Source: Conoideocrella luteorostrata (lineage: Eukaryota > Ascomycota > Sordariomycetes > Hypocreales > Clavicipitaceae). From it: a DNA stretch of 29,277 nt. The notes beneath the pieces were generated by a model. That model had not been told where the DNA came from, did not search any database, and worked only from the letters and a program-made list of their open reading frames with translations. The number at the start of each line of letters is the position of its first letter. The stretch's first letter is position 1. This document shows positions 4,489 through 27,430 of this stretch, piece after piece. The stretch lies in assembly GCA_032433595.1 (NCBI GenBank), contig JASWJB010000436.1:1-29277 (forward strand), read 5' to 3'. A program made the translations under genes and the position numbers.

Positions 4489-7223
4489 TTACTCTGTCGT
4501 TAGTCTCAACTTCTTTCCTACATCCCTCCGTCTTGCCTGTACGGCGGCCCTCTCAGAAGCTTTACTCTCTGCCGGATCAGCACCCCTATCACGGGCTTTC
4601 AGTGCCTGTAGGAGCATCCCGGCATCAAAGAATCCATCTGTTTAATCCGGGTGTCAGTTTTTCTCTCCTTCATTGTTGGCTTTTTTGCTTGGGGGGAGGA
4701 GATGGGGGAGGAGAAGTGGGAGGAGAAGGGGGAAAGTGTCTAAGAAAATTCAGTACGAGAAACTTACAACCACCCAACTCATCATCATCACTCCCAACTG
4801 CACTCTCTTCTGTCTGACTCGCCGTTTCCTTGGCCGCCACACCTTCTGCCGTGATCAGCCTTCCACGAGACTTGAGGCGATTCACTTGTTGCGGCCTAGC
4901 GGACTCGACCTCTCTGGCACGGCTACTCTTCATGGTGGAAGACTTGCGGTTTGTGATTCTCAGGATACGTCGAATCTCTAGGAGATAGCTCTCCAGTGTG
5001 GCTACAAATCGCTTTGTCTGGCGATGCTTGCTCGACACGCAGATGGAGACGGAATCATCTTTAATAATGTACCCGATTCCGAAGCCGTCTCCGGATGTCG
5101 GACCAAAGCCGAACTGTCTCAGAGATGGGTTACCACAGTTGGATGTTGAAAGAACGGTCGTGTTGAGTTTATCCCATCCGCCGTCGGCAAATATGAATGG
5201 AAGAGGATGCGTTTCTCGGGATCGGGAGTTCGTGCTGTCGCCGCGCTCTCGGTTGGGCTTGACTTCTACGACTTGGTCCATGGATCCAGCCGATTCTTTG
5301 CCAGGACTGCCGACGGGCGAGTAGTCTGTGGGACTCGAGCGTCCAACACTGCTCATGCCACTCTCAATTTCATCATCGACGTACTTCTGCCAGACGCAGA
5401 AAAGCGCATACAAGTGACGATCACATCCCTCTGCCTTGAGGCAGTCTCTTGTACGGCTTGTATGTTTCTGGCAGGCGCGCTTGAGAGCTTCAATTTTCTG
5501 CTCGGCAGGATTATCTGCCCAGAAGGTTTGGACAAAGTCCACTGATTCTTGGGAAACTGTGCGAACTGCTTCTGTTCGCCCATGAAGATAAAATTTTGTC
5601 ATAGCCGGCTCGTAGGTACATTCTACACGGCCGTACAGTCCGTAGTATGCTGCTTGAAACGCCATTTGAACAAATGCATCAGGAGAGAATCCCATTGAAG
5701 TAATGAAGTTCTTGCCATAAGAGGTAAAGTCCAGACACTGAAACTCATTCTGTTCAATGAGATCAGCCAACCTGGTTTCAGCGAACCTTACAGCAATGCT
5801 CAGCTCGGGAATCATGTCCCACTCCAGTTTTCGTGGTGTGGTGTTGACGTCTCCAAAACTCTCGGGGTCTCGTTTCGATGGGTCAGGGCTCGTAGATGTC
5901 CACAGTGTCGGCGCCTGTCCATTGATGGTGCGCGCAAATCGTAGAATGGTGTCTGTGTAGACATCACTGGCGAATCGAAGAACGGTGTGGCCATCAACAC
6001 CAGTGTGTTCGAAATTGATTCCTGCACTTCCGTTCTTGCACACAATGATCTGCATCTTATCATACCACCGATTGGTGCACGTGCCAATTTGCACACCGTT
6101 CTTAACCTCACTCGAGCCGCATAACATATTCTGACACAAGGCCGCAACATCCTGAGGCTCCGTGTAATCAAGGCAAAGCGCGAAGAGCGCAGAGTCTACA
6201 ATATTGAGACAATCGGCGTTATTGGACTCAGGGTCTTTGGTCAGGACGTCTCTTAGGCCCGACCAAATTTTACGGTTCTCAGTGCTGAGCACACCCAAGG
6301 CGCCCTTCGCAGCGTCCTGAATAGGGGTCTGAGCCGCATCTTCCGTAATGGTCTGCAGATTCAGGGCAATGTCCTTCTCTGTCATGATGACATCCGAGTT
6401 GTCGTCAAGAACATCGAACCAGTAGATTTGGCCGTGGCAAATGACGACGACATGCTTGGCTTCGGGGTCTTGTACAATTTGACAGCCATTCTCTGTGGGT
6501 ACGCGAGCTGTCCCAAAGAGACGAGAAAATTGATACATGCACAAGGGCTTGCCTTTCACAGTATCCGGTGGGAGTTCCTCCTTGCGGACTGCACGAATAA
6601 ACTCCAAGGCAGAAACCACCAAGGACGCCGCACGTGTGACTTGATTGTTGCGTGCAGGTGTAGGATCATCCTCAAGAAGGAAAAAGGGGTTCAAGTTAAG
6701 GACCACGGGGTTATCAAAGTTCAAGTATGAGTCGTACCCTAGAAAGTAGAATTAGATCACAAATTTGGACCTGGCAGACGCTGTTGGCATCCTCGTTTCA
6801 CTTACAAAACTGCTCAATGTAACTCGTCTTGCCCTGAGCATATCTCTTCAACTTTTCTTGTAAATCTGGACCATCTGTAACAAGGAAGTCCCTCACAGCA
6901 TGCTCCGTTTCGGCTCGTTCTCTAGGTGTTTGCAACGGTCTAAGAGCTTCCAAGTACTTTTCGCAAGTGTTGGCTAGCTCGGGTATGGGAAGCTTAGGCA
7001 GCTTATCCTGGGCGGCAAATGTGATGCCACCGTCCCTATGACCCTCCTCGCTATTGTCCAGAGGCATTCTTGTATAGGTAGCAGATAAGTTCAAAGGTAC
7101 TCGCGGCGTAATGGAAGCGGTTGGCTCGGGAAGAGTGCGGGGGGTGGTAGAATTGATCAGAGGCTCGGCGAGCCTTGCTGCCAAAGAATTTGGCGGGTTG
7201 AAAACTCTGACTTTGGCGGTCAT
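4489..7223 (-). CDS. Carnitine O-acetyltransferase, Yat1/Yat2-like (choline/carnitine acyltransferase family)
   Basis: Transfers acetyl groups between CoA and carnitine, moving acetyl units during growth on acetate or fatty acids. Exons are 6806-7223, 4768-6738 and 4489-4637; introns of 67 and 130 bp both start GTAAGT; product 845 aa. An in-frame TAA lies 9 nt upstream of the ATG, fixing the start. The first junction restores EQFWYDSYLNFD. The catalytic His is H384 in FEHTGVDGH; the substrate region is about 505-532 (YGLYGRVECTYEP); the STS motif is at 670-672 in VLSTSN; a GFGIGY motif follows. A Ser/Pro-rich insertion at about 599-647 makes it longer than typical 600-650 aa enzymes, as in yeast Yat2. 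The last exon encodes a GGYGFFDAG tail ending LRLTTE. No obvious mitochondrial presequence or PTS1 is seen, suggesting a cytosolic enzyme. Family is certain; subclass is likely. Confidence 0.95.
4691..4732 (+). other. G-rich polypurine tract inside intron 2 of the carnitine acetyltransferase gene
   Basis: The + strand has four G-runs (4691-4696, 4704-4708, 4718-4720, 4728-4732) in an almost pure purine tract. It is therefore the template strand of the minus-strand gene that could form a G-quadruplex or a triplex. On the sense strand it is an unusually long CT tract. A CTGAC branch site and the CAG acceptor lie downstream of it. Confidence 0.7.
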
Positions 7224-8520: not shown

Positions 8521-9194
8521 AACGAGTGAGGCAGTTCGCATAGAGCAGATGCAGAGAATGCGCGCTCTAGATTGCTCCAGACGCTGCAGGCGCAGAGCAG
8601 GCGCTGGGCAGGCGGTGGGGGAGTTGGTGTGCGTGCGGAGACCGACTGACAGAGTAGCTGTGACGGCCGTGACCACTGGAGGCGTCGCAATATGGGTGGT
8701 GACGGCTTGCTCACATGCAACAACCAGCCGTGGAGTCTGGGACGAGCAAAGTGAGGCCGCAACGTAGTATTCCTGCCCCGTTCTGCACTCCGCGGGTTAA
8801 TATGCATCAGGCCTGTTTCCTCATGTATTACGGAGCATCATGGGCACCCTGCATAGCCAAGGCCACGCCGTGGTTCGGACGAAGGGACCTTCGGTTGATT
8901 GGGGATTGACAGATTACCGGACGTGTAAAGAGCTTAGCCTTGCTCCGTCCGTGCCTTTACTGTGGATAGGTGCCTAGCGTTACGGCTAACCCATCCGTCT
9001 GCCCTATCTGTTGACCTCACCGGCCGCACTCAGAAACACCCCACTCACGGCCATCTGCGTGCGCCTTGGATTTCAGAGTATCAAGAGCCCATCAGGTCCA
9101 TCAGTCCATTAATTAAACAAGAGCAATAACTATGTAATACCCCAGTGCAGCCAAGGATTCCCAAGGTAAGTCTGTCCCGACTACTCAACGCTTG

Positions 9195-11160
9195 TCACGC
9201 CTCGGACACGCTGTGCCCTGGCGCAAACTTCTCCTGTGCTTTGGCCACCAAGTCATCGAATCGATCTTCTGGCTCCTTAATCTTTCCAAAAGCGACTGTA
9301 TTATGATCGAAAATAGCGTTCATCTGCTCCAATGTCTTCCCACGCGTCTCTTGGAAGAATAAGAAAACATGAACAAACGCCGCAACACAGAATGACCCGA
9401 AAATCATGTAGAAGCGCCACTGGATGTTTTCGAAGGCAGGGGGCACGAAGAAGGTGAGACTGAAGTTGCACGCCCAATTGAACAAGGTTGCCAGCGACAC
9501 AGCTTTCGAGCGAATATAGAGAGGAATGATCTCAGAGGGGTAGATCCATCCCATCGGCCTGTGGGGAGCGATTAGTGTAGCCCTGCTGATGGATGCATCA
9601 CAGCTCGAAGTAATGTGCTGTAGGTTCTAAGAATCAAAATGCGGGAGTCAAAGTTGTGTCAACTTACCCCCAAGTACATGCAAACGTCGCGATGAACAAG
9701 TAACTGCATGCAATAATCGCCTTGCTGGCCCCTCCACCTTCAATTACCCACGTAATCGTCGAGTTTCCTTTCAGACCTCCCGGAACGGCGTGTCCCTGTG
9801 TTGCCATTACCGCTCCACCGATGAAGAGCAGAATAGCCATCAAGGCGCTCCCTGTCATCATGACCTTACGACGCGGCAATCTGTCTATGAACAGCAGTGC
9901 AGGAACTGTCATAACGGTGTTGATGATGTACTGAATGCTGGATATTGTCAAGTTATTGGTTCCAGATAGACCTGCCATCTGAAACAGAAACGTAATATAA
10001 TACATGAATGCATTGGTGCCTTGAAAATGTTAGAAGTTGTTTCAATATGTCGTCTGTTAGTGGCAAAATACCGGAATACTGTGCCCACACATGTGCAAAT
10101 ATGCAGACATGTACACGGATAATATTGCGCCGCGTGAAGAGCTCCGTCCAACTGGTGGAATTATATTTTAGTTCGAGTCTAACAACTTCAAGGTTAATAT
10201 GCTATATCTGCATAAGTTGTTAATTGCGATGGATGAGAAACGCACTGAACACGTTCTCTGATTTCTTGCATTTCGGCAAGAACTTCGGCGTTTGTCTCGT
10301 CCCCTCTCGCCCGTAGTGAGGCGAGAACGGTGATGGATTCTTCCCATCGATCTTGCTTCGCAAGCCATCGAGGAGACCGAGGCATAAACGGCACGCATGC
10401 CAGGAGAAACATGGCAGGGATCATTTGCAAGCCCCAAGGTAACCGAAAAGATGCCGTCGACGATATGAATGACGTGCCGTACGAGATGTAATACATTATC
10501 AAGATCTAGAGTATAGGTAAGAAGCTGACGGCGGATTTGTTTTTACTTGCGGTCTGGCAGAACCTACACCCCATGTAATCATCCACTGCTGCAAGGAAAT
10601 GAGCTGCCCACGGCGTCGAGCCGGACTCAGTTCGGCAATGTAGATCGGACTACAGTATACCGTCAGAAACGTCATGATCAACATCACGATAAATAAGAAT
10701 GCATTTACCCTTGACTAGTCAGCATGCCCACTGCGAATCCATTGACAATCCGCGACACAATTAGCATCGCCCGGTTTTGAGCAGCACTCATGATTATTGA
10801 ACCACATATGAAAATAATGCAAGCGATGGCCATGGTATCGCGGCGACCGACTCTGTCTCCTGTCCATGATGCAAGCAAGGCACCAAGAAGGGAGCCCCCA
10901 GCCATAGAGGCAGTGATGCCTCCTTGAGCGACAGAGTCGGGCCTTGAAAAGTATTCCTTGTACTAATGAGAGATTAGAATTGAACTACCCTTCCCCATTA
11001 AGCAGCCGCCTCCCTCATGCCCGATTGGCGATCAACATATCGAACGTACCTGCGGTGTAGCCAAAATGGCAGAGAGAGAGGACACATCGAAGCCCTGCAA
11101 CAAGCCACCTAGCGTGGCAAGGCTGCATATGACATACAAGTTTGTGAGCTTTGGAGCCAT
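9195..11160 (-). CDS. MFS sugar transporter (sugar porter family), 12 membrane helices
   Basis: A probable proton-coupled sugar transporter of the plasma membrane. Exons run 11050-11160, 10709-10962, 10568-10649, 10246-10505, 10072-10178, 9668-10019 and 9195-9558; introns are 87, 59, 62, 67, 52 and 109 bp; product 509 aa, normal for the family. All phases close. Sugar-porter signatures are GDRVGRR (loop 2-3), YIAELSPARRRGQL, QQWMITWG, PRSPRWL, WAQYSGTNA in helix 7, DRLPRRK (loop 8-9), GPMGWIYPSEI in helix 10, and the terminal ETRGKTLEQ. The central loop (about 205-260) and the short C-tail are charged. The helix-7 motif differs from the QQxxG of classical hexose transporters, so I do not assign a substrate. 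Introns 3 and 4 use the less usual donors GTAGGT and GTGCGT. It is divergent from the zinc-cluster regulator at 12097, its likely controller. Confidence 0.94.
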
Positions 11161-12086: not shown

Positions 12087-12110
12087 ATGTCCCATCATGC
12101 CGGTCGATAA
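12087..12110 (+). other. Overlapping upstream ORF at the regulator start
   Basis: An ATG at 12087 opens a seven-codon frame ending in TAA at 12108-12110, overlapping the main ATG at 12097 in another frame. The upstream ATG has T at -3 (weak), while the main ATG has A at -3 (good), so leaky scanning would be needed. It should lie in the mRNA because it is only 10 nt from the main start. Confidence 0.55.
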
Positions 12111-15100
12111 CTTGCTGGGGAAGGGAAAGCGTTCACGTACCGGTAATGCACAATCCGCCCTCTCAGCAGGAAATCCGACCAAATGGATGCCAAGCTAATC
12201 TAACACCCGTCTCTGGTCTATAGGCTGTGGTACTTGCAGAGCCCGTAAGGTATGCGCTCAACCTGTGTGCCGCCACCAGTAGCTGGTGGCCAAGACATGA
12301 CAAGGCGGTTGCCATTACTTGCGCAATGTCTTACAATATCCCCTTACGTCAATTGGTCTTGTTCTTACGCTGCATCAGGTGAAATGTGATGAACGTCCCG
12401 ATGGATGCGCAAATTGCGCCAGATTGCAAATCCCCTGTCTACGACCGGCAGCAAATAAGCCTGTCGCCACACCTGATGCAAAAGAGCAGGCAGCCAATGC
12501 GGAAAAATTTCATCGGCACCGAACCTTTCGGTCTTGCAACTCGTGTCGCACTGCCAAAGTTCGGTGCACTGGTGAAAGACCTACTTGTAACCGCTGCCAG
12601 AGACGGGATGCGAAGTGCCAGTATGATGGGAAAGCAGCTCCTCGATGGATCAATAGAGCTTCAAATTGGCGAGGAAGGTCCGAGTCTTACGACCGCCATG
12701 ACGCGACTCCTTCAAGCTTTGACTATTCCAGCGACGACAATTCAGTTGACACAGAGCCGTCTAGTTCATTCAGATTTGAGATTGACAGCCAAGAACAGCA
12801 ACTAAGTCAGACTAAAGTAAGGAAGCCATCAGCATCAGAAGATAATAGGGACATGGATAATACAAGACATTCATTGAGCTGGTAAGACATGAGGGCCAGT
12901 GCCTACTAAACTCTCATAACTCACACTTTACCCAGGCTATTTACCGCGCGCTTACCTTCTGATAAGCGTATGTTGCGTCTTGTGAAGATGTATTTTAATC
13001 TGATACATCCTCTTCGATGCTTTGGCTTCATTCACCGACCCTCGTGGATGCAAAATTATGAGGATCAGTCGGACAAAGAGCGGAATAACAACGCAGTTTT
13101 GTTAGCCATCTGTGCCCTTGGAGCAAAGTGAGCCGGTCTGAACCCGAATTATGCAACTGCACTGCCACGAGGTATGATGTTGCTAATACAAGGCATTTAC
13201 CAGATTCTATGCAGCTGCAACTACAAAATCCCAAAGTCGAGGAACTGCCTACATACTGCGAGCGGGCACACAGTGGGCTAATCGGGCGAAACAACTACTC
13301 TTTTTAAGTCTTAATAGCCCGACTTCAGAAACTATTATGGTTGGATCTTGTTCGCTCCCTTTGAACAATACTGTGAGAGACTAGCTAACTGTTCTAAGGC
13401 CGCAATACTGTTACATGAACATGAACTTCGAGTAGGCAACTACTCATCAGCTTTCATGATTACTGGCCTCGCGGTTCGTTTAGTACAAGGTCTTCAATTA
13501 AACGTGGAACCAATGTCTGTTCAACCTCGATTCAATTCAAACCTGGCGGCCGAAACCTTTCTTGAGTCTTGTCGCCGTATAATGTGGAGTGTGTACATTA
13601 TGGATGGCTGGGTAGGTAGTGGTGTGGATGAGTTAACTATGATCAATGAGAAGAACATCCGGATTCGGCTGCCATCTTCTGAGGCTGACTTCACCCTTGA
13701 GGCGGCCAACGCTTCACCCACCCCCATGTTCCCTTTGGATGGGCAGACTAATCATCGGCGCGGAGAGTTGGACGTTGCTGCACAGTTTGTACTACTGCTG
13801 GAACTACGCAAGAAGGTTCTCAGGTATGGATGACCTCGCTCCCTTTGACCTCCAGCAAGCCTCCCAAAAGTATTGTTTCAAGGCTAACGCACGTAATTTA
13901 TAGATTTGTCAAGCATCTCGACGAAACACAACCTCCGTATCTTGAAGACTCGGAATTCTCTGTAATCCACCGCTCACTTGCCCATTGGGCTCATTCTCTT
14001 CCCGAAAGTCTCCAGTTCGATCGCTCTGCCATTCAGAAGCGCAAGATTTCCGGTCAACATGGGGCTCTTATGCTGCTTCATGTATGCTATCATCAAACTG
14101 TGTGTGATCTTACTCGCATTGGAATGCCTGAACTCTTCCGCATACGCGTACCTTTTCAATTCTCGCCTGACAAGAAAGATTTCGTGGAGGGAGTCCAGAA
14201 TGTATGCTTCGATAGTTGCATTGCCGTAACGAATCTTTTTCGGGAAGCACTACATCATGGGCAGGAGATGTTTGCAGATACATGGCTGTGCGTAGTGGCA
14301 CATGATTCTATCCGCGTCATCGTGCATTACTTGAGTAAACATTTGGGAACGGTAGCGAGACATGAGGATGTTCTTCTGAGAGAGACTGCAATTTCGGGTT
14401 TAAGTGCAAATATGCAGGCTTTGGAGAGGTTAATACCTCTCCAAGCGTTGGCTAAGCCATTGGTAAGTCTGTCGCCGTGGCTTTTCTTTCCAAATAGGTG
14501 ACATGATACTAACCTAATATTGAAGCATGCCTCAGCTTTAGCTACTGTCAAGGCTGCTGAAATAGAGCTTCCCGCAGTTCTATCTGATACGACAGAAGGA
14601 TTGGGGATGTCCAGGGATGAAATGTGAGTTTTGGATCACATGCTACTTGTAACCGACGCTACCGTTTCAATGCTAATAGTTTTTCACGGCAGTGGGCCAC
14701 GAGCATCAAGTCCAGCACCTCACACACCAGAATACGTCCTGAATCCTCTCGCCATATACCGGATGGCGAGACAAGACATTAGAAAACACGAAAAGCAGTC
14801 AGTCGAATCAATCAGTGACGAGCATGACCAACAGGCCATCCACCAAGACCTATCTACACAAAACATGCAGCAAGCATCGCTTCCCCCAGAAGTAGCTAGC
14901 ATGCATGGCGATGTGAATGTCGCGGATCCCGAAATGGGTTATTACAATGGCCCCATCCTGGAAGCCTTTGACCTACCGTTGAGCTTCGATGACCTCCAAG
15001 CATATATGAGTTTACCGCCTTTGCTGAATCAGTTCAATGGTGGCGTTACTACTCTAAGACCAGACGGAGGTAGTGATTTTGTGTTTGGCGATTCAACTCA

Positions 15101-15203
15101 GACAAGTGGGCATTTTGGTTCATCAAATTACGGTACAGGGGTCGGTCAGACTGCTGACATGGGAGCCTTTGGTCCACCATCTGGTCAGGTTTGGATGGAG
15201 TAA
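12097..15203 (+). CDS. Fungal transcription factor with two tandem Zn2Cys6 clusters and a middle homology region
   Basis: Exons run 12097-12142, 12224-12249, 12379-12881, 12936-13127, 13204-13339, 13399-13823, 13904-14462, 14526-14623 and 14693-15203; product 831 aa. Cluster 1 (C17, C20, C27, C34, C37, C44) and cluster 2 (C77, C80, C87, C94, C97, C104) both fit C-X2-C-X6-C-X6-C-X2-C-X6-C, separated by 32 residues. Cluster 1 spans exons 1-3, with exon 2 only 26 nt. Joining gives KRSRTGCGTCRARKVKC, the usual start of such domains. The fungal-specific middle homology region begins about 193 (HPLRCFGFIHRPSW) and includes ESCRRIMWSVYIMDGW. The last 190 residues are Gln/Ser/acidic-rich, a likely activation domain. 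Intron 5 has an unusual GTTGGA donor but a good GCTAAC branch site. AATAAA lies at 15392. It is divergent from the sugar transporter, the likely target. Confidence 0.93.
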
Positions 15204-18049: not shown

Positions 18050-18347
18050 CACAACCTGCGACATCCATGCTTGGGCCACAATAGGGCTAACCGTGTCTCT
18101 CACGGTGATTGTAATAACAGAGTTTGAGCTAAAGCGGAGATAGTTGCTGCGTGGTCTAAGTGGCTTGCTATGAACTGAGGGGGTTAGCTGTGTTCGTATA
18201 TTAATTGACGGTTGCCCTCTTCTCTGAAAGTCCAAAGAGTCCCCTTATTTTGTTTACCTGGTACGCATAAGGACCTGATGCTCTAAGTGGTTCTCGAATC
18301 CTTAACTAAAGCAACACATCCCTGCCGGTTGAAGGCAAATAGCCGTT

Positions 18348-21300
18348 ATGGCGCCTGAACGCCAAGAAGGAATAGCTCCAGAGCTACATATTGAAGAGCA
18401 AGCTACCACTCATATCCCAAGTCGATCTCATGAACATCGAAGAAGCTCTGTCGAGGTCCCCCTTCATCCCGGCACTGACTCTGAACCCGATGATCTCGAA
18501 CCAATAGCTCGACGCCAAACTTCAACAATGATAGAGGATCAAGACAGATCTGAGCTAGTTCGAATTGCTACGGCTCTTTCGCGCCGTCGATCAAGCGTAG
18601 CAGCCCAGCCTATTCCCAGCAACACCTTGGACACCATTGACGAGAACGATCCGGCCCTCAATCCTGAGAACAGAGACTTCGACCTTGAAAAATGGCTGCG
18701 CCGATTCATGGAACAAATCAGCGAAGAGGGGATAAAGGAGAAGTGTATGGGTGTCTCCTATCGAAATCTCGACGTTTTTGGTTCCGGTAGCGCCTTGCAA
18801 CTTCAAGATACCGTTGCATCTATGGTCTCAGCCCCTTTGAAGCTTGGGCAGTTTTTCAGCTTCAACAAAAACGACCGAAAACAGATCCTTCACAGCTTTG
18901 ATGGCTTCCTGAACGCCGGCGAGCTTTTAGTTGTGCTGGGTCGTCCGGGATCTGGATGCAGCACACTTCTTAAGACCATCTGCGGAGAATTGGAAGGCCT
19001 TCAGCTTGGGGACCAAACCAACATTCACTATACAGGTATTCCGCAAAGGCAAATGATCAAGGAGTTCAAGGGAGAAACGGTCTACAACCAAGAGGTAATA
19101 CAGAAGAGCTTCACAATAATGCTTGAGTAGCTGCATGGATGTTCTAACTTGTGAGGCCAGGTCGACAAGCATTTTCCCCATCTTACTGTCGGCCAGACTC
19201 TCGAGTTTGCCGCCTCAGTCCGTACGCCTCAGCATCGAATCCAGGGCATGTCCCGGGTAGAGTACTGCGAATACATTGCCAAGGTCGTCATGGCAGTCTT
19301 CGGCCTCAGCCACACCTATAATACGAAGGTTGGAAATGACTTTGTTCGCGGTGTCTCTGGCGGTGAGCGGAAGCGAGTTAGTATCGCTGAAATGGTTGTG
19401 GCTGGATCGCCACTTACTGCCTGGGATAACAGGTTTGTGGAATAATACCCCTAGGTTCGAACAGAACGAACATCTTTACTGACATATGATGTAAGCACTC
19501 GTGGCCTCGACTCAGCCACTGCCCTCAGATTTGTCCAGGCATTGCGTCTAGCATCTGACTTGGGCCACCAAGCCAACGCCGTGGCTATTTACCAAGCGAG
19601 TCAGTCCATCTATGACCTGTTCGACAAAGCTACCGTCTTGTATGAAGGCCGCCAGATTTATTTCGGCCGGGCTGATCAGGCCAAACGCTATTTCGAGAAG
19701 CAAGGATGGTTCTGCACCGCTCGTCAGACCACTGGCGATTTCCTCACGTCTGTCACAAACCCCCAGGAGCGAGTTGCCCGGGAAGGATTTGAAAACAAGG
19801 TCCCACGTACTCCGGAAGACTTTGAGCGATTATGGCGCCAGTCACCAGAGTATCAGTCCTTGCTTAACGAAATGGACGCGCACGACAAGGAGTTCTCGGG
19901 CGAGCGGCAAGGCGAAAGCCTTGCACAGTTCAGAGAGCAAAAGAACTTCCGACAGTCAAATCACGTCCGGCCCAAGTCTCCGTACTTGGTCAGCGTTTGG
20001 ATGCAAATCAAACTGTGCACAAAACGCGCTTATCAGAGAATTTGGAACGATATTTCAGCTACCGCCACTCAGACTGTATCCAACATCGTCATGGCTCTCA
20101 TCATTGGTTCAATCTTCTTCGGTTCCCCCGACGCTACTATCAGTTTCTACGCGCGAGGCTCTGTTCTCTTCATGGCTGTTCTTATGAATGCTCTGACTTC
20201 CATCTCCGAAATTACTGGCCTATACGATCAACGGCCGATTGTCGAAAAGCATGCGTCGTACGCGTTTTATCATCCGGCTGCAGAAGCGGCGGCAGGTATA
20301 GTTGCTGATATTCCAGTCAAGTTTGTCACTGCGGTTGCGTTCAATCTCGTGCTGTACTTCCTGGCCGAGCTGCGACGTGAACCCGGTCCATTCTTCCTGT
20401 ACTTCCTTATTACCTACGTTTCAACATTTGTCATGTCTGCCGTGTTCCGAACCATGGCAGCGGCTACCAAAACGGTCTCGCAAGCAATGACGCTGGCCGG
20501 CGTTTTGGTCCTCGCTTTGGTTATCTACACCGGGTTTGCTATTACAGTTCCCGAAATGCACCCATGGTTCAGCTGGATACGATGGATCAACCCTGTATTC
20601 TACGCCTTTGAGATTTTGGTTGCCAACGAGTTCCACGGCCGGGACTTCACCTGCTCTAGCATCGTGCCGCCGTACACGCCCAACATTGGTGACTCTTGGG
20701 TGTGTTCAGTAGTTGGCGCAGTAGCTGGCCAGTACACCGTCAATGGCGACGCCTTTATTGCCGCAAACTACCAGTATTACTATTCGCACGTTTGGAGAAA
20801 TTTTGGTATTCTGCTGGGTTTCTTGATCTTCTTTATGGCTACTTACTTTGTCACCGTCGAGCTGAATTCAGCAACTTCGAGCACCGCCGAGGCTCTTGTC
20901 TTTCGCAGAGGTCATGTCCCTGCTTACCTTTTGAAGGGAAAAACTCACGCTGTGCAGAACGATGAGGCTCCAACAACTCCCGATGAAAAGGCCACCAATG
21001 GAGAAAATGGTTCCGACGTCAAGGCGCTTGCACCGCATAAAGATATTTTCACTTGGCGTGATGTGGTATATGACATTGAGATCAAGGGCGAGCCTCGTCG
21101 GTTGTTGGATCATGTATCTGGTTGGGTCAGACCTGGTACGCTGACTGCTCTTATGGGCGTCAGTGGTGCTGGCAAGACTACTCTCCTGGATGCTCTAGCC
21201 CAAAGAACTACCATGGGAGTCATCACCGGAGACATGCTCGTAAATGGGAAACCACTTGACGCTAGTTTCCAGCGCAATACGGGTTACGTGCAGCAACAGG

Positions 21301-23156
21301 ACTTGCATCTTGAAACTGCGACTGTCCGTGAGAGTCTTCAATTTAGCGCCATGCTTCGCCAACCAAAGTCTGTCAGTAAAAAGGAGAAGTACGACTTCGT
21401 CGAGGAGGTCATCAAGATGCTCAAGATGGAAGACTTTGCTGAGGCTGTGGTCGGTGTCCCAGGCCAGGGATTGAATGTTGAACAGCGAAAACTTCTCACC
21501 ATTGGTGTGGAGCTGGCAGCCAAGCCGAAACTCCTACTTTTCCTTGATGAACCTACTTCTGGACTTGACTCTCAGAGCTCCTGGGCCATCTGCGCTTTCC
21601 TTCGCAAGCTTGCCGATTCTGGCCAGGCCATTTTGTGCACTATTCATCAGCCCAGCGCTGTACTGTTTCAAGCCTTTGATCGTCTTCTGTTCCTCGCCAA
21701 GGGAGGCAAGACGGTCTACTTTGGTAACATTGGTGAAAACTCACGTACTTTGCTTGACTATTTTGAGTCCAACGGTGGACGTACCTGCGGTGACCAGGAA
21801 AACCCCGCCGAGTACATGCTCGAAGTGGTGAACAAAGGCCAAAACGACAAGGGTGAAGACTGGCACAATGTTTGGCACAGTAGCCCCGAGCGAGTTGCTG
21901 TCATGGAAGAAATGGAAGGCATTCACAATGAGAAGGCACATGAAGCTCCAACGGGCGGGGAATCAGTTCAGAAGCACAGCAGCTACGCCATGCCATTCCT
22001 CACGCAGCTTACAGTCGTCACGCATCGCATTTTCCAGCAGTACTGGAGAATGCCTAGTTACATCTTTGCCAAGCTCGCTCTGGGTATATTTGCCGGTTTG
22101 TTTATTGGCTTTACGTTCTTCGACGCCAAGTCTAGCCTGGCTGGCACACAGACCGTCATTTTCAATACCTTTATGCTTACAACCATTTTTTCATCCATTG
22201 TGCAACAGGTAAGTTTGACTCTTGCACCCTTAGATCCTTAGACCTCTGGACGGGACGAATATACCCTATTACCCGCGTCACTGTACTGTATATTGACAGC
22301 CCACTCTAGATTCAACCACTTTTCATCACACAACGCTCCTTATATGAAGTACGGGAGCGTCCTAGCAAGGCATATTCCTGGGTTGCCTTCATCATTGCCA
22401 ACATCGTGGTTGAGATCCCATATCAAATTTTCACTGGTGTTCTTATTTGGGCGTGCTCTTATTACCCAGTAATTGGTATCCAGAGCTCTGATCGCCAGGG
22501 ATTGGTACTGGCCTTTGTCATTCAGCTATTCATCTACGCCAGCTCATTTGCGCACATGACCATCGTGGCGATGCCCGATGCACACACAGCAGGTGCCATT
22601 GTAAACGTTCTTCTCATTCTGAGCATCATTTTCAGCGGTGTCTTGCAAACTGCTGCTGCTCTTCCCGGTTTCTGGTATGTTCCCATCGTCGTGGTTGTTT
22701 CCATTCTCGTGATCATTCCTAGCTAACGAAATGTTCAGGGTCTTTATGTATCGCGTCAGTCCATTCACATACTGGATCGGCGGTGTCGTTGGAACCGAGC
22801 TTCATGGCCGAGAAATTGTATGCTCGGAAAAGGAGACCAACATTTTCAACCCTCCGCAGGGCATGACATGTGGACAATATCTTAAGCCTTTGCTGGAAAA
22901 GGCACCCGGGACTCTGCAGAATCCAGAAGCTACCTCTCAATGCAGATACTGCACTGCTAGCGTTGCCGACCAAGTCATTGCCGGCTCAGAAATCTTCTGG
23001 ACCGACAGGTTCCGCAATTTTGGCATCATGTGGGCGTACATCGCCTTTAACATTTTCATGGCGATTCTCTTGTACTACTTGTTCCGAGTGAAGCAGTGGA
23101 ACAAGGGATCTTCAAAGTCAAAGGCCAAGAAGAACAAGAGTAAGGAGAGCTCGTAG
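18348..23156 (+). CDS. PDR-type ABC multidrug transporter (ABCG full transporter)
   Basis: A plasma-membrane ATP-driven exporter of hydrophobic compounds, related to yeast Pdr5 and Candida Cdr1. Exons run 18348-19094, 19161-19432, 19496-22208, 22310-22674 and 22739-23156; introns are 66, 63, 101 and 64 bp; product 1504 aa, full length. Order is NBD1-TMD1-NBD2-TMD2. NBD1 has the degenerate Walker [10 protein letters not shown] (198-206), signature VSGGERKR (314-321) and WDNSTRGLDS, all typical of fungal PDR proteins. NBD2 has canonical GVSGAGKTT (from 894), Q-loop GYVQQQD, degenerate signature LNVEQRK (999) and [14 protein letters not shown] (about 1019). TMD1 contains [10 protein letters not shown], and TMD2 contains [15 protein letters not shown]. 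The last exon has a Cys-bearing extracellular loop, a final helix and a basic tail ending KNKSKESS. Intron 2 uses a GTTTGT donor. The promoter carries three palindromes. The drug or metabolite substrate is not predictable. Confidence 0.97.
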
Positions 23157-23689
23157 CACGAAGGTCACCTTTGCGGAAAAGTGCTTATTTTATTTGTTGG
23201 GTAAATCGGAGAAGTTGAGTGACTACATCTTGTAATACGCTTGTATCATGGCTACATATCTGCCAGGATTTGACACTTGAACAAACTTTTTTTTTTTTTT
23301 TTTTGAATTGTCACATAGTCTTCAGAATAATGAATTGTTATCATTGATAGGAAATAATTTCGGTCATGCAGTCAAATTTTCTACTTCTGATACAGATGTA
23401 AAATCGTCATAATCGCCAGGTGTTCTATTACACAAGAAATGAACTCATGGGCTGAACGTGCATAGCTGTTCTGCTGAAAACATGCCGAGCCCAGCTAGCA
23501 GGCTGGCCAGCATTTTGGCGTTATGGCCGGCGTGACTCACTACGCCTCGAGCTACGGATTAGTTTGATTTACACCATCTACCCAAGCTAAATACCTCTGC
23601 TTGAAATCCGCTTCCATACACGTCGATGTACCGGACGTGACCGAGAAAAATCAGCGGAACGACTCAATGGAAAGAGCTGTACACAAGCC
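23157..23689. other. 533-bp spacer between the ABC transporter and GNAT genes
   Basis: AT-rich 3' flank with an 18-base T-run at 23287-23304, then a presumed short promoter for the GNAT gene. No coding feature was seen. Confidence 0.75.
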
Positions 23690-24280
23690 ATGCCTCAACC
23701 TACACTCGCAACGTCCCGCCTCACCCTAACCCCCCTCACAGCTGCTACAGCCCACCTAAATCTTATTATCCGCCTCGACACCAACCCCCGCGTGATGAAA
23801 TACATTGAGAAACACGTTCTAACCACTCAGAAAGCCACGGACGACCACTCGGTCCGCCTCAAGGCCTCTCTCATAACCGACGGTCTGGGATACTGGGTGG
23901 GCTACTACGAAAACCAACCCATAGGATGGTGGTCCCTGGCACCCTGCACCAAAGACAACGGGGAGGTGGACCCTTCAAAGGCAGAGCTCGGATATCGTCT
24001 CCTTCCGCAGTATTGGCGTCAGGGTTTGGCGAAAGAGGGAGCGGGGAGGCTGGTGAGGTATGGCTTTGAGGAGATGGGCCTGAAAGAGGTTTTTGGGCAG
24101 ACCATGAATGTGAATGAGGGGTCGAGGAAGACGATGGAAGCTTGTGGTATGGGGTTTGTGAGGCGGTTTTGGGAGCAGTTTGAAGATGCCATTGAAGGGA
24201 CGGAGGAGGGGGAGGTTGAGTATGCGATTGAGAAGGGGGAATGGGAGGTGCTGGGGGAGGAGAAGAAGGGATTGGTGTAA
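23690..24280 (+). CDS. GNAT-family N-acetyltransferase (RimJ/RimL-like)
   Basis: Single exon, 196 aa, a normal size for the family; transfers acetyl from acetyl-CoA to an amine. The fold shows TSRLTLTPLT at the N-terminus, a central strand with GYWVGYYENQPIGWWSL (about 67-83), then motif A ELGYRLLPQYWRQGLAKEG (99-117) with the acetyl-CoA loop RQGLAKEG, and the conserved VNEGSRKTMEACGM near 141-154. This is the Acetyltransf_3 pattern. The C-terminus is Glu/Gly-rich. The substrate is unknown; small molecules, antibiotics and protein N-termini are all possible. An out-of-frame ATG at 23667 opens an overlapping 20-codon frame ending at 23729. Base composition shifts within the gene, with a C-rich first half and a G-rich second half. 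It lies downstream of, and codirectional with, the ABC transporter, but separately promoted. Confidence 0.92.
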   Translation: MPQPTLATSRLTLTPLTAATAHLNLIIRLDTNPRVMKYIEKHVLTTQKATDDHSVRLKASLITDGLGYWVGYYENQPIGWWSLAPCTKDNGEVDPSKAELGYRLLPQYWRQGLAKEGAGRLVRYGFEEMGLKEVFGQTMNVNEGSRKTMEACGMGFVRRFWEQFEDAIEGTEEGEVEYAIEKGEWEVLGEEKKGLV

Positions 24281-25951: not shown

Positions 25952-27430
25952 ATGGATATGACGACCGATGTCGACCAGGCGATTGCCGCGGGGCGCGTAT
26001 CAGAGCCGCTGAGCAGGGAATTTCTGTTGGAGAGCAAAGACCGACCTGCTATTGCTGGAATATTATTCGTCACCATTTTGACGTCGGTGATTGTATTTGG
26101 GAGAGTCTTGTCAAGGACGTTTATTGTGAGAAGATTTGGGTATGACGATGCGTTGGCCGTTGTTTCGCTGGTATGTATATGCTTCGATGGTATTTTTTCC
26201 TGGTTTCTCCCAACATATGAAGATTGGGGCACTCTGCAGTCTGCTGTATAATAGAGACACACATGCTCACCATCCATCCATCTCAGGCATGTTTGATCGC
26301 GTTTGTCGGTCTATGCATCGAGCTCATCACTCTCGGATCGGGTCGTCACTTTGCCTACATCCAATATGTCCTCCCCGTCGACATTGTCATGCGGACCCAG
26401 ATTCTCGATTTTGTCGCCCACATTGTCTACACAACGGCGCTTCTGCTTTGCCGCGTCTCGGGTCTGGCATTCTACTACCGCATCTGCGGCCTTCACAGAG
26501 GCTTCCTGGTTACGATCCGTGCCGTAGGCGGCGTCATCATTGCTGGCTTCTTGCCGCAACTTTTCTTACTGATCTTCCACTGTCACCCCGTGACGGGGCT
26601 ATGGCCGTATGGCTGGGAGCCGGGCCATGAGAACTATACATGCTTGCAATGGGGGATCGTGTACAGCGTGAATTCGTCCGTGTCGTTGGTGTGTGACTTG
26701 CTGCTATTTGGTATTCCGGTGGCCATGCTGTGGATTTTGGAGATGCCGAGGAAGAGAAAGGTGCAGCTGGGATGTATCCTTCTGCCTGGTCTGGGGTGAG
26801 CTACATATGCGCCTGTGATGATGTTTTTCTACTGGCGAATGGCGAATGATGACAGCTAACTTGGAGGTTTGCACTAGTGTCGTTGGTATCTCGGTGGCTC
26901 GTCTGGTTCTCGTTATCCAGGGGCAGTGGGAAACCGACATGGTATGTTGCGAGTATTTCAAAATGGTGTATTGCCTAAAAAAAAAAAAACCACTCCAAAA
27001 AAACTGACCTTGTTTCTCCCCACAGTCCTGGTCTTATAATCCCATGCTTGCAGTCGAAACCTCAGAAATCGGCGCCACTCTCATCGCGCTCTCCATCCCG
27101 GGCGTCAAGCCCATCTTCGACAAATACATCCTCAACAAGAACCCGCACACCGAGTCCGGCAACTCAAAATACAACAGAAGCACGAGCAGACGCTCCAAGG
27201 GCACTGCCCTCAGCACGCTGCGACTACGTTCACGGCACAGCATGCTGACGAGCCAGGAAAACGCGGCAGTGTACGGGCACGAAGCCAGTGCCAGCTCGCA
27301 GCGCGAGGAGAACAACCGGGAGAGTGGAGGGGAGGACGGGATTTTCGTCAGAGTCGATTTTGACCTGAAGGAGGAGGCGCAGCTGGAGATGGGAGAGCGG
27401 AAGCCAGGTTCGAAATATGCACCGTACTGA
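25952..27430 (+). CDS. Fungal rhodopsin-domain integral membrane protein (SAT4/PTH11-like, seven helices)
   Basis: Exons run 25952-26170, 26287-26795, 26878-26941 and 27026-27430; introns are 116, 82 and 84 bp; product 398 aa. Seven hydrophobic helices are visible: AGILFVTILTSVIVFGRVL, then ALAVVSLACLIAFVGL, the QILDFVAHIVYTTALLL helix, GVIIAGFLPQLFLLIF, SVSLVCDLLLFGIPVAML, GCILLPGLGVVGISVARL and TSEIGATLIALSIPGV. The FHCHPVTGLW motif after helix 4 and the FGYDDALA loop are hallmarks of the fungal rhodopsin family. The C-tail of about 110 aa is hydrophilic, Ser/Arg-rich then Glu-rich. It has no CFEM domain, so it is not a full Pth11 type. Some relatives act as surface receptors, most are uncharacterised. 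An alternative start lies two codons later (ATG at 25958). Intron 3 carries an A13 run and a CTGAC branch site. Confidence 0.92.

Follow-up and report, generated by a model that had tools for sequence, protein, structure and literature searches.

Classical zinc-cluster factors dimerise to read two DNA triplets, and Pfam lists architectures with two such clusters. In Gal4, the side chain of Lys18 hydrogen-bonds the guanines of CGG (PMC5559640, in part). An Alternaria factor with two Zn2Cys6 domains is cited in an introduction (PMC10305253, in part), and PoZCP55 receives a passing mention as one of the two-cluster kind (PMC7295025, in part). The survey by Shelest tabulates pairings of different domain types, and the portion of its table that was available has no row for a pair of Zn clusters (PMC5415576). 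In the open-access literature, as distinct from subscription papers, and within the accessible parts of its articles, we found no description of DNA binding by a tandem-cluster protein. Searching the literature under the identifiers of Aspergillus, Fusarium and Ustilaginoidea relatives of the regulator analyzed here returned no relevant title.

The window, meaning the whole stretch of DNA that was analyzed (29,277 nucleotides), comes from Conoideocrella luteorostrata, a fungus that kills insects. At 12097-15203 (+) it contains a regulator gene whose nine predicted exons give, in the spliced model, a protein of 831 aa, the length claimed in the preliminary description. Exon 1 (12097-12142) provides the start codon and a basic N-terminus (MPVDNLLGKGKRSRT), and exon 2, of 26 nt (12224-12249), encodes the 5' part of cluster 1, GCGTCRARK, with C17 and C20. 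Intron 2 (12250-12378, phase 0) cuts cluster 1 after ...CRARK, at a predicted position that is common to the paralogues C119, C356, and C239. Exon 3 (12379-12881) encodes the remaining part of cluster 1, the linker, cluster 2, and the hinge ahead of the middle region. The remaining coding sequence, up to the stop codon TAA, lies in exons 4-9 (12936-15203), placed by the spliced model at 12936-13127, 13204-13339, and 13399-13823 (exons 4-6) and at 13904-14462, 14526-14623, and 14693-15203 (exons 7-9), all on the plus strand. Cluster 1 (C17-C44; 12226-12438 (+)) matches Pfam Zn_clus and has intron 2 inside it, while the 32-residue linker between the clusters (12439-12534 (+)) ends in RHRTFRS at its C-terminal side. 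Cluster 2 (C77-C104; 12535-12618 (+)) holds no intron and gives a Zn_clus match at C436:12529-12633 in the scan of the organism's own genome, where C436 denotes the regulator. The middle homology region (Pfam Fungal_trans, residues 209-419; 12985-13752 (+)) extends across exons 4-6; Zn2Cys6 regulators frequently, though not universally, have such a region.

All eight introns of the regulator gene are of the GT-AG type, with a weak donor at intron 5 (GTTGGA). Intron 1 reads GTAATG...TATAG and has a CTAAC branch-like motif; a loose branch-like motif near the acceptor is reported for the regulator introns as counted without a chance control. We also noted, at 12087-12110 (+), an upstream reading frame of 7 codons (ATG...TAA) that runs in another frame across the predicted start codon at 12097 and could dampen translation of the regulator.

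When exons 1-3 were spliced, the strict pattern C-X2-C-X6-C-X6-C-X2-C-X6-C matched at residues 17 and 77, in agreement with the two complete Zn2Cys6 clusters, C17-C44 and C77-C104, reported earlier as lying 32 residues apart. Both clusters fit the broader Zn2Cys6 pattern, C-X2-C-X6-C-X5-12-C-X2-C-X6-8-C. The unspliced window contains one strict six-Cys match, which is cluster 2 by position, cluster 1 being split by intron 2, and none of 100 simulated first-order Markov windows contained such a match. The domain search for two GAL4-type matches that had been proposed gave the same picture, Pfam Zn_clus scoring 48.1 bits on the 831-aa protein (cut-off 21) in two stretches and Fungal_trans (PF04082) scoring 78.9 bits (cut-off 23). 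NCBIfam profiles, a prokaryote library, gave no match. As predicted from these exons, the regulator is a Gal4-class protein with both clusters and one middle homology region.

It could be argued that this architecture is an annotation artefact, exons 1-2 being separate from exon 3 and the clusters belonging to different proteins. The public model of the locus (P0001), which begins far downstream, would fit such a view, which we nevertheless regard as hardly credible. Against it, the same intron is predicted in three paralogues. The sequences of C119, C356, and C239 place a phase-0 GT donor at the same cluster-1 codon as in C436, and the next exon of each is predicted to open with V-K-C after AG. 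In the DNA of this genome, a phase-0 intron in cluster 1 after C-x2-C-R-x-R-K is predicted in these four genes and is missing from C33. This common predicted intron supports the joining of exons 1, 2, and 3. Both clusters also stand in one chain in 81 of the 120 listed relatives. Finally, the open frame of exon 3 has no in-frame ATG upstream of cluster 2, and skipping exon 2 would shift the reading frame (46 nt vs. 46 + 26 = 72), so that a product with cluster 2 only would be hard to make.

The public protein P0001 (QQS21_011859, 463 aa) is identical to residues 369-831 of the regulator. As it begins at residue 369, both clusters and part of the middle region (12097-13600 (+)) are absent from it. 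With residues 1-368 as query, 62 proteins were listed, none of them near-identical over the N-terminus within the length range used, outside which very short models fall, and none of the named rows among these 62 came from C. luteorostrata. The public protein of the C33 paralogue, P0165 (QQS21_002696), begins inside cluster 2, although a single open frame of the DNA contains both clusters. That gene models omit DNA-binding exons is an established difficulty: among 16,760 "middle region only" entries, CeGAL puts forward a domain for 14,482 (PMC10141177, in part), and for Aspergillus ploA the cluster was added to the gene model from cDNA (PMC5988728, in part). The intron in cluster 1 gives a reason why annotation can leave these proteins with a single cluster or without any, and database counts of the two-cluster architecture are probably too low.

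The homologue search with the regulator scored 7,994 candidates and listed the best 120 of 136 proteins. Its relatives include ANIA_11216 (P0108) of Aspergillus nidulans. By pattern, two clusters were found in 81 of these 120 relatives, one in 18, and none in 21; for relatives of at least 700 aa, the corresponding numbers were 68, 10, and 7 of 85. A search with the C33 paralogue, for which 120 of 377 proteins were listed, gave 63 proteins with two clusters, 4 with one, and 53 with none, or 63, 4, and 2 of the 69 that reach 700 aa. Rarity of the two-cluster design is ruled out by the 81 relatives and the 63 C33-type proteins. Species with two clusters include members of Seiridium, Coniella, Cryphonectria, Fusarium, Claviceps, Penicillium, Aspergillus, Septoria, Alternaria, and Phialocephala, which we take to represent several classes of filamentous ascomycetes. 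Among the 18 one-cluster relatives, the cluster is of the cluster-2 type in 16 (15 by pattern, P0013 by eye) and of the cluster-1 type in 2; because 16 of 18 retain the cluster-2 type, these models point to missed cluster-1 exons rather than to loss of cluster 2. The gap between clusters spans 16-44 residues across the tandem proteins, so the 32 residues of the regulator lie inside the subfamily range, and the C33-type linker measures 22 residues in 39 of 63 proteins and 28 in 18 of 63. The preliminary description had left the rarity of the pair open, setting against it the case that the architecture is common and well described. The first half of that case holds, since two clusters are the norm in the regulator family and in a paralogous one, and for the second we found no functional description in the open literature. 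The two-cluster design is widespread in filamentous fungi yet little studied, and the regulator is one more case of it.

At least seven genes of this genome carry the cluster pair (C436, C119, C356, C239, C33, C31, and C1), a lower bound because scoring covered 150 of the 391 candidate Zn_clus sites and the scan for split clusters covered 44 loci, with two genes among them present twice. C356 (L060) and C239 (L062) are tandem regulators with a predicted intron at the shared codon inside cluster 1, so that domain scans detect only one cluster in them. C31:126306-126749 (L002) and C1:99233-99853 (L003) have both clusters in one open frame, with spacers of ~84 and ~146 residues, respectively, and a second cluster of a different type (C-x2-C-H-R-L-K-V-K-C); these two pairs are less related to the regulator and possibly of separate origin. 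Half-cluster matches were also seen near L033 and L046 and may be due to chance. In a tree of the middle region with 53 tips, whose deep branch order is not usable, the window family formed one clade (47 tips, support 0.888). These 47 tips were C436, C119, and 45 proteins picked by step from 105 family proteins; of the C33-type proteins, three passed the length filter, and a single one of these joined C33 in the tree. C58, C115a, and C16, with fewer than 300 matched positions, were left out of the tree.

The 28-residue clusters of 81 window-family proteins were compared, related sequences being included without down-weighting. Mean pairwise identity at non-Cys positions was 0.70 for cluster 1 (n = 79) and 0.45 for cluster 2 (n = 76), while in C33-type proteins clusters 1 and 2 were about equally conserved (0.72 and 0.74). 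The two clusters of the same protein share 0.21 in the window family and 0.27 in the C33-type; the baseline for unrelated clusters, obtained from single-cluster genes of this genome compared with each other, is 0.27 (n = 23). Because this likeness does not exceed that of unrelated clusters, there is no sign of recent duplication, and a recent internal duplication of one cluster is not supported. Between subfamilies, identity was 0.425 for cluster 1 against cluster 1, 0.29 for cluster 2 against cluster 2, and 0.16 and 0.27 for the crossed pairs. Common descent of cluster 1 in both subfamilies is supported by the value of 0.425, this cluster also carrying the shared predicted intron. Common descent of cluster 2 was likewise considered and is not shown by sequence, as 0.29 is near the unrelated 0.27. 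In a single comparison, cluster 2 of the regulator was nearer to cluster 1 of C33 (0.41) than to its cluster 2 (0.27). At the position of Gal4 Lys18, Lys or Arg occupies all 79 of the 28-residue clusters 1 (78 Lys) and all 76 clusters 2 (62 Lys). A PDB sequence search (phmmer) gave Ppr1 (1pyi) as best match of cluster 1 and Gal4 (1d66) as best match of cluster 2; 16 sequences were listed, each matched in one stretch.

The 75 residues that follow the last cluster were scanned for heptads with a simple in-house rule, not a published coil predictor. As controls we went down the own-genome Zn_clus table and took 40 loci whose open frame was 250 aa or longer, known tandem pairs being left out; removal of L057 (no pattern match), L030 (frame too short), and L045 (C356, tandem) left 37. 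A heptad-like segment was present in 1 of 81 window-family proteins, 0 of 63 C33-type proteins, and 8 of 37 single-cluster genes of this genome, the counts for tandem proteins not being independent since these proteins are related. Before the removal of C356, the counts were 8 of 38 for controls and 1 of 95 for tandem proteins, shorter proteins included. The sole positive protein of the window family, P0014, contains VVQLVEAFFANMHSLR, which we interpret as helix 1 of the middle region. A coil is a typical, not a universal, trait of Zn2Cys6 proteins, and it was not evident in the scanned relatives of the regulator (apart from the P0014 segment) or in the structural model of the homologue P0006; as 29 of 37 single-cluster genes also fail the test, absence of a coil is weakly diagnostic. 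In that AlphaFold model, built with 50 aligned sequences, both clusters have a pLDDT of about 85-94 and two short helices each. Confidence falls below 50 at linker residues 71-87 and is low through most of the hinge. A single 7-residue helix and no coiled coil lies between cluster 2 and the middle region, which is helical and largely confident.

From sequence comparison, we lean toward a reading in which the two clusters both bind DNA and jointly read a composite site, the middle region being a sensor and a possible dimer interface. Cluster 1, the more constrained of the two, would read a CGG-type triplet, and cluster 2, on a flexible tether, would read a second and probably somewhat different half-site. 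Together they would recognise a composite site, a task for which classical members rely on a coiled-coil dimer. A signal, probably a metabolite, would be sensed by the middle homology region, through which the protein may also dimerise. A linker that varies from 16 to 44 residues argues for a flexible tether and against a fixed half-site spacing. The earlier suggestion that a monomer reads two triplets, or a dimer four, is plausible: both clusters are intact, a basic residue occupies the Gal4 Lys18 position, and no coil is evident, all in favour of two-triplet reading, while the variable linker, the less conserved cluster 2, and a middle region that weakly resembles Cep3 and could dimerise are neutral or count against it.

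Two other readings have to be weighed against this one. Cep3 is a homodimer, and Cep3 of CBF3 is among the best structural matches that Foldseek returned for the P0006 model (6gyp_C, E 3.6e-5; 2veq, 1.2e-3; 4 at E up to 0.001), so on this model a dimer of the regulator through its middle region is possible. Four clusters would then read two composite sites, or two would bind while the others add affinity. We give real weight, short of belief, to this reading: Gal4-class readers of triplet pairs are typically homodimers (PMC5559640, in part), but the resemblance to Cep3 is weak, the six best rows having 9-11% identity, TM-scores of 0.30-0.33 (by query length), and an rmsd of about 9-14 Å, and a coiled coil is not evident. 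It seems to us unlikely that specific DNA reading falls to one cluster alone, most probably cluster 1, with cluster 2 serving as a structural, backbone-contact, or protein-contact module. The difference in conservation (0.70 for cluster 1 vs. 0.45 for cluster 2) would agree with it, as would the long relatives that by pattern have one cluster (10 of 85) or none (7 of 85). However, cluster 2 retains its Cys pattern, with Lys or Arg aligned to Gal4 Lys18 in all 76 copies that were compared, and it is the cluster-2 type, not cluster 1, that 16 of the 18 one-cluster models retain.

The joint reading by both clusters can be extended, tentatively and with more doubt than conviction, to an ancient group of Gal4-class regulators in filamentous ascomycetes. 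In this group a diverged cluster pair in one chain would have replaced the coiled-coil dimer, a single chain reading a two-part site, and the group may have been overlooked partly because an intron cuts cluster 1, which gene models would then often miss. If one chain suffices, the family would offer a natural setting in which to test how this large class of fungal regulators encodes spacing and orientation.

A Sugar_tr transporter gene, recognised by Pfam in two of the three open frames tried, lies divergently to the regulator at about 9190-11000 (-) and is, by position alone, a candidate target. Between the transporter and the regulator, CGG/CCG triplets were not enriched (33 seen vs. 26.0 expected, sd 5.4; densest 60 bp, P = 0.27), nor were they upstream of C119 (33 vs. 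27.8, sd 5.6; P = 0.22). Autoregulation or control of the transporter through a CGG array was rejected for want of enrichment, and because CGG is not enriched in either region we put forward no target with confidence. Elsewhere in the window, we observed a gene for a PDR/CDR-type ABC transporter at 18333-23156 (+), downstream of the regulator and on the same strand, a carnitine/choline acyltransferase gene at 4670-6751 (-), a GNAT acetyltransferase frame at 23591-24277 (+), and a fungal rhodopsin-domain (Fung_rhodopsin) frame at 26221-26796 (+).

Among known systems, AlcR is a single-cluster protein, unlike the regulator. AlcR, and possibly Pho7, offers a precedent for Zn2Cys6 binding as a monomer, without a coiled-coil dimer (PMC5559640, in part). 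With Gal4 and Ppr1 (PDB 1d66 and 1pyi), the regulator shares the six-Cys cluster and the basic residues between Cys 2 and Cys 3; Gal4 has one cluster and a coiled coil (PMC5559640, in part), whereas the regulator has two clusters and no evident coil. Dual-specificity fungal regulators such as Cmr1/Pig1 also carry two DNA-binding domains per chain, but of different types, C2H2 and Zn2Cys6 (PMC5415576, in part). CCG_02279 and CCM_00582, of Tolypocladium and Cordyceps, have two C6 zinc domains per protein, combined with DUF3468 and not with the Fungal_trans of the regulator (PMC6471507, in part). The C33-type subfamily (P0165, P0168, P0238, and relatives) has tandem clusters and a middle region as the regulator does; it differs in its linker, mostly of 22 or 28 residues, and its C33 copy has no intron within cluster 1. 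The clade of C119 and Ustilaginoidea virens UV8b_06261 (P0055), which includes Fusarium fujikuroi P0034, named "related to nitrate assimilation regulatory protein nirA", has tandem clusters and a related middle region, and C119 has the same predicted intron position. At about 29-36% identity to the regulator, this clade is represented by a separate paralogue in the same genome.
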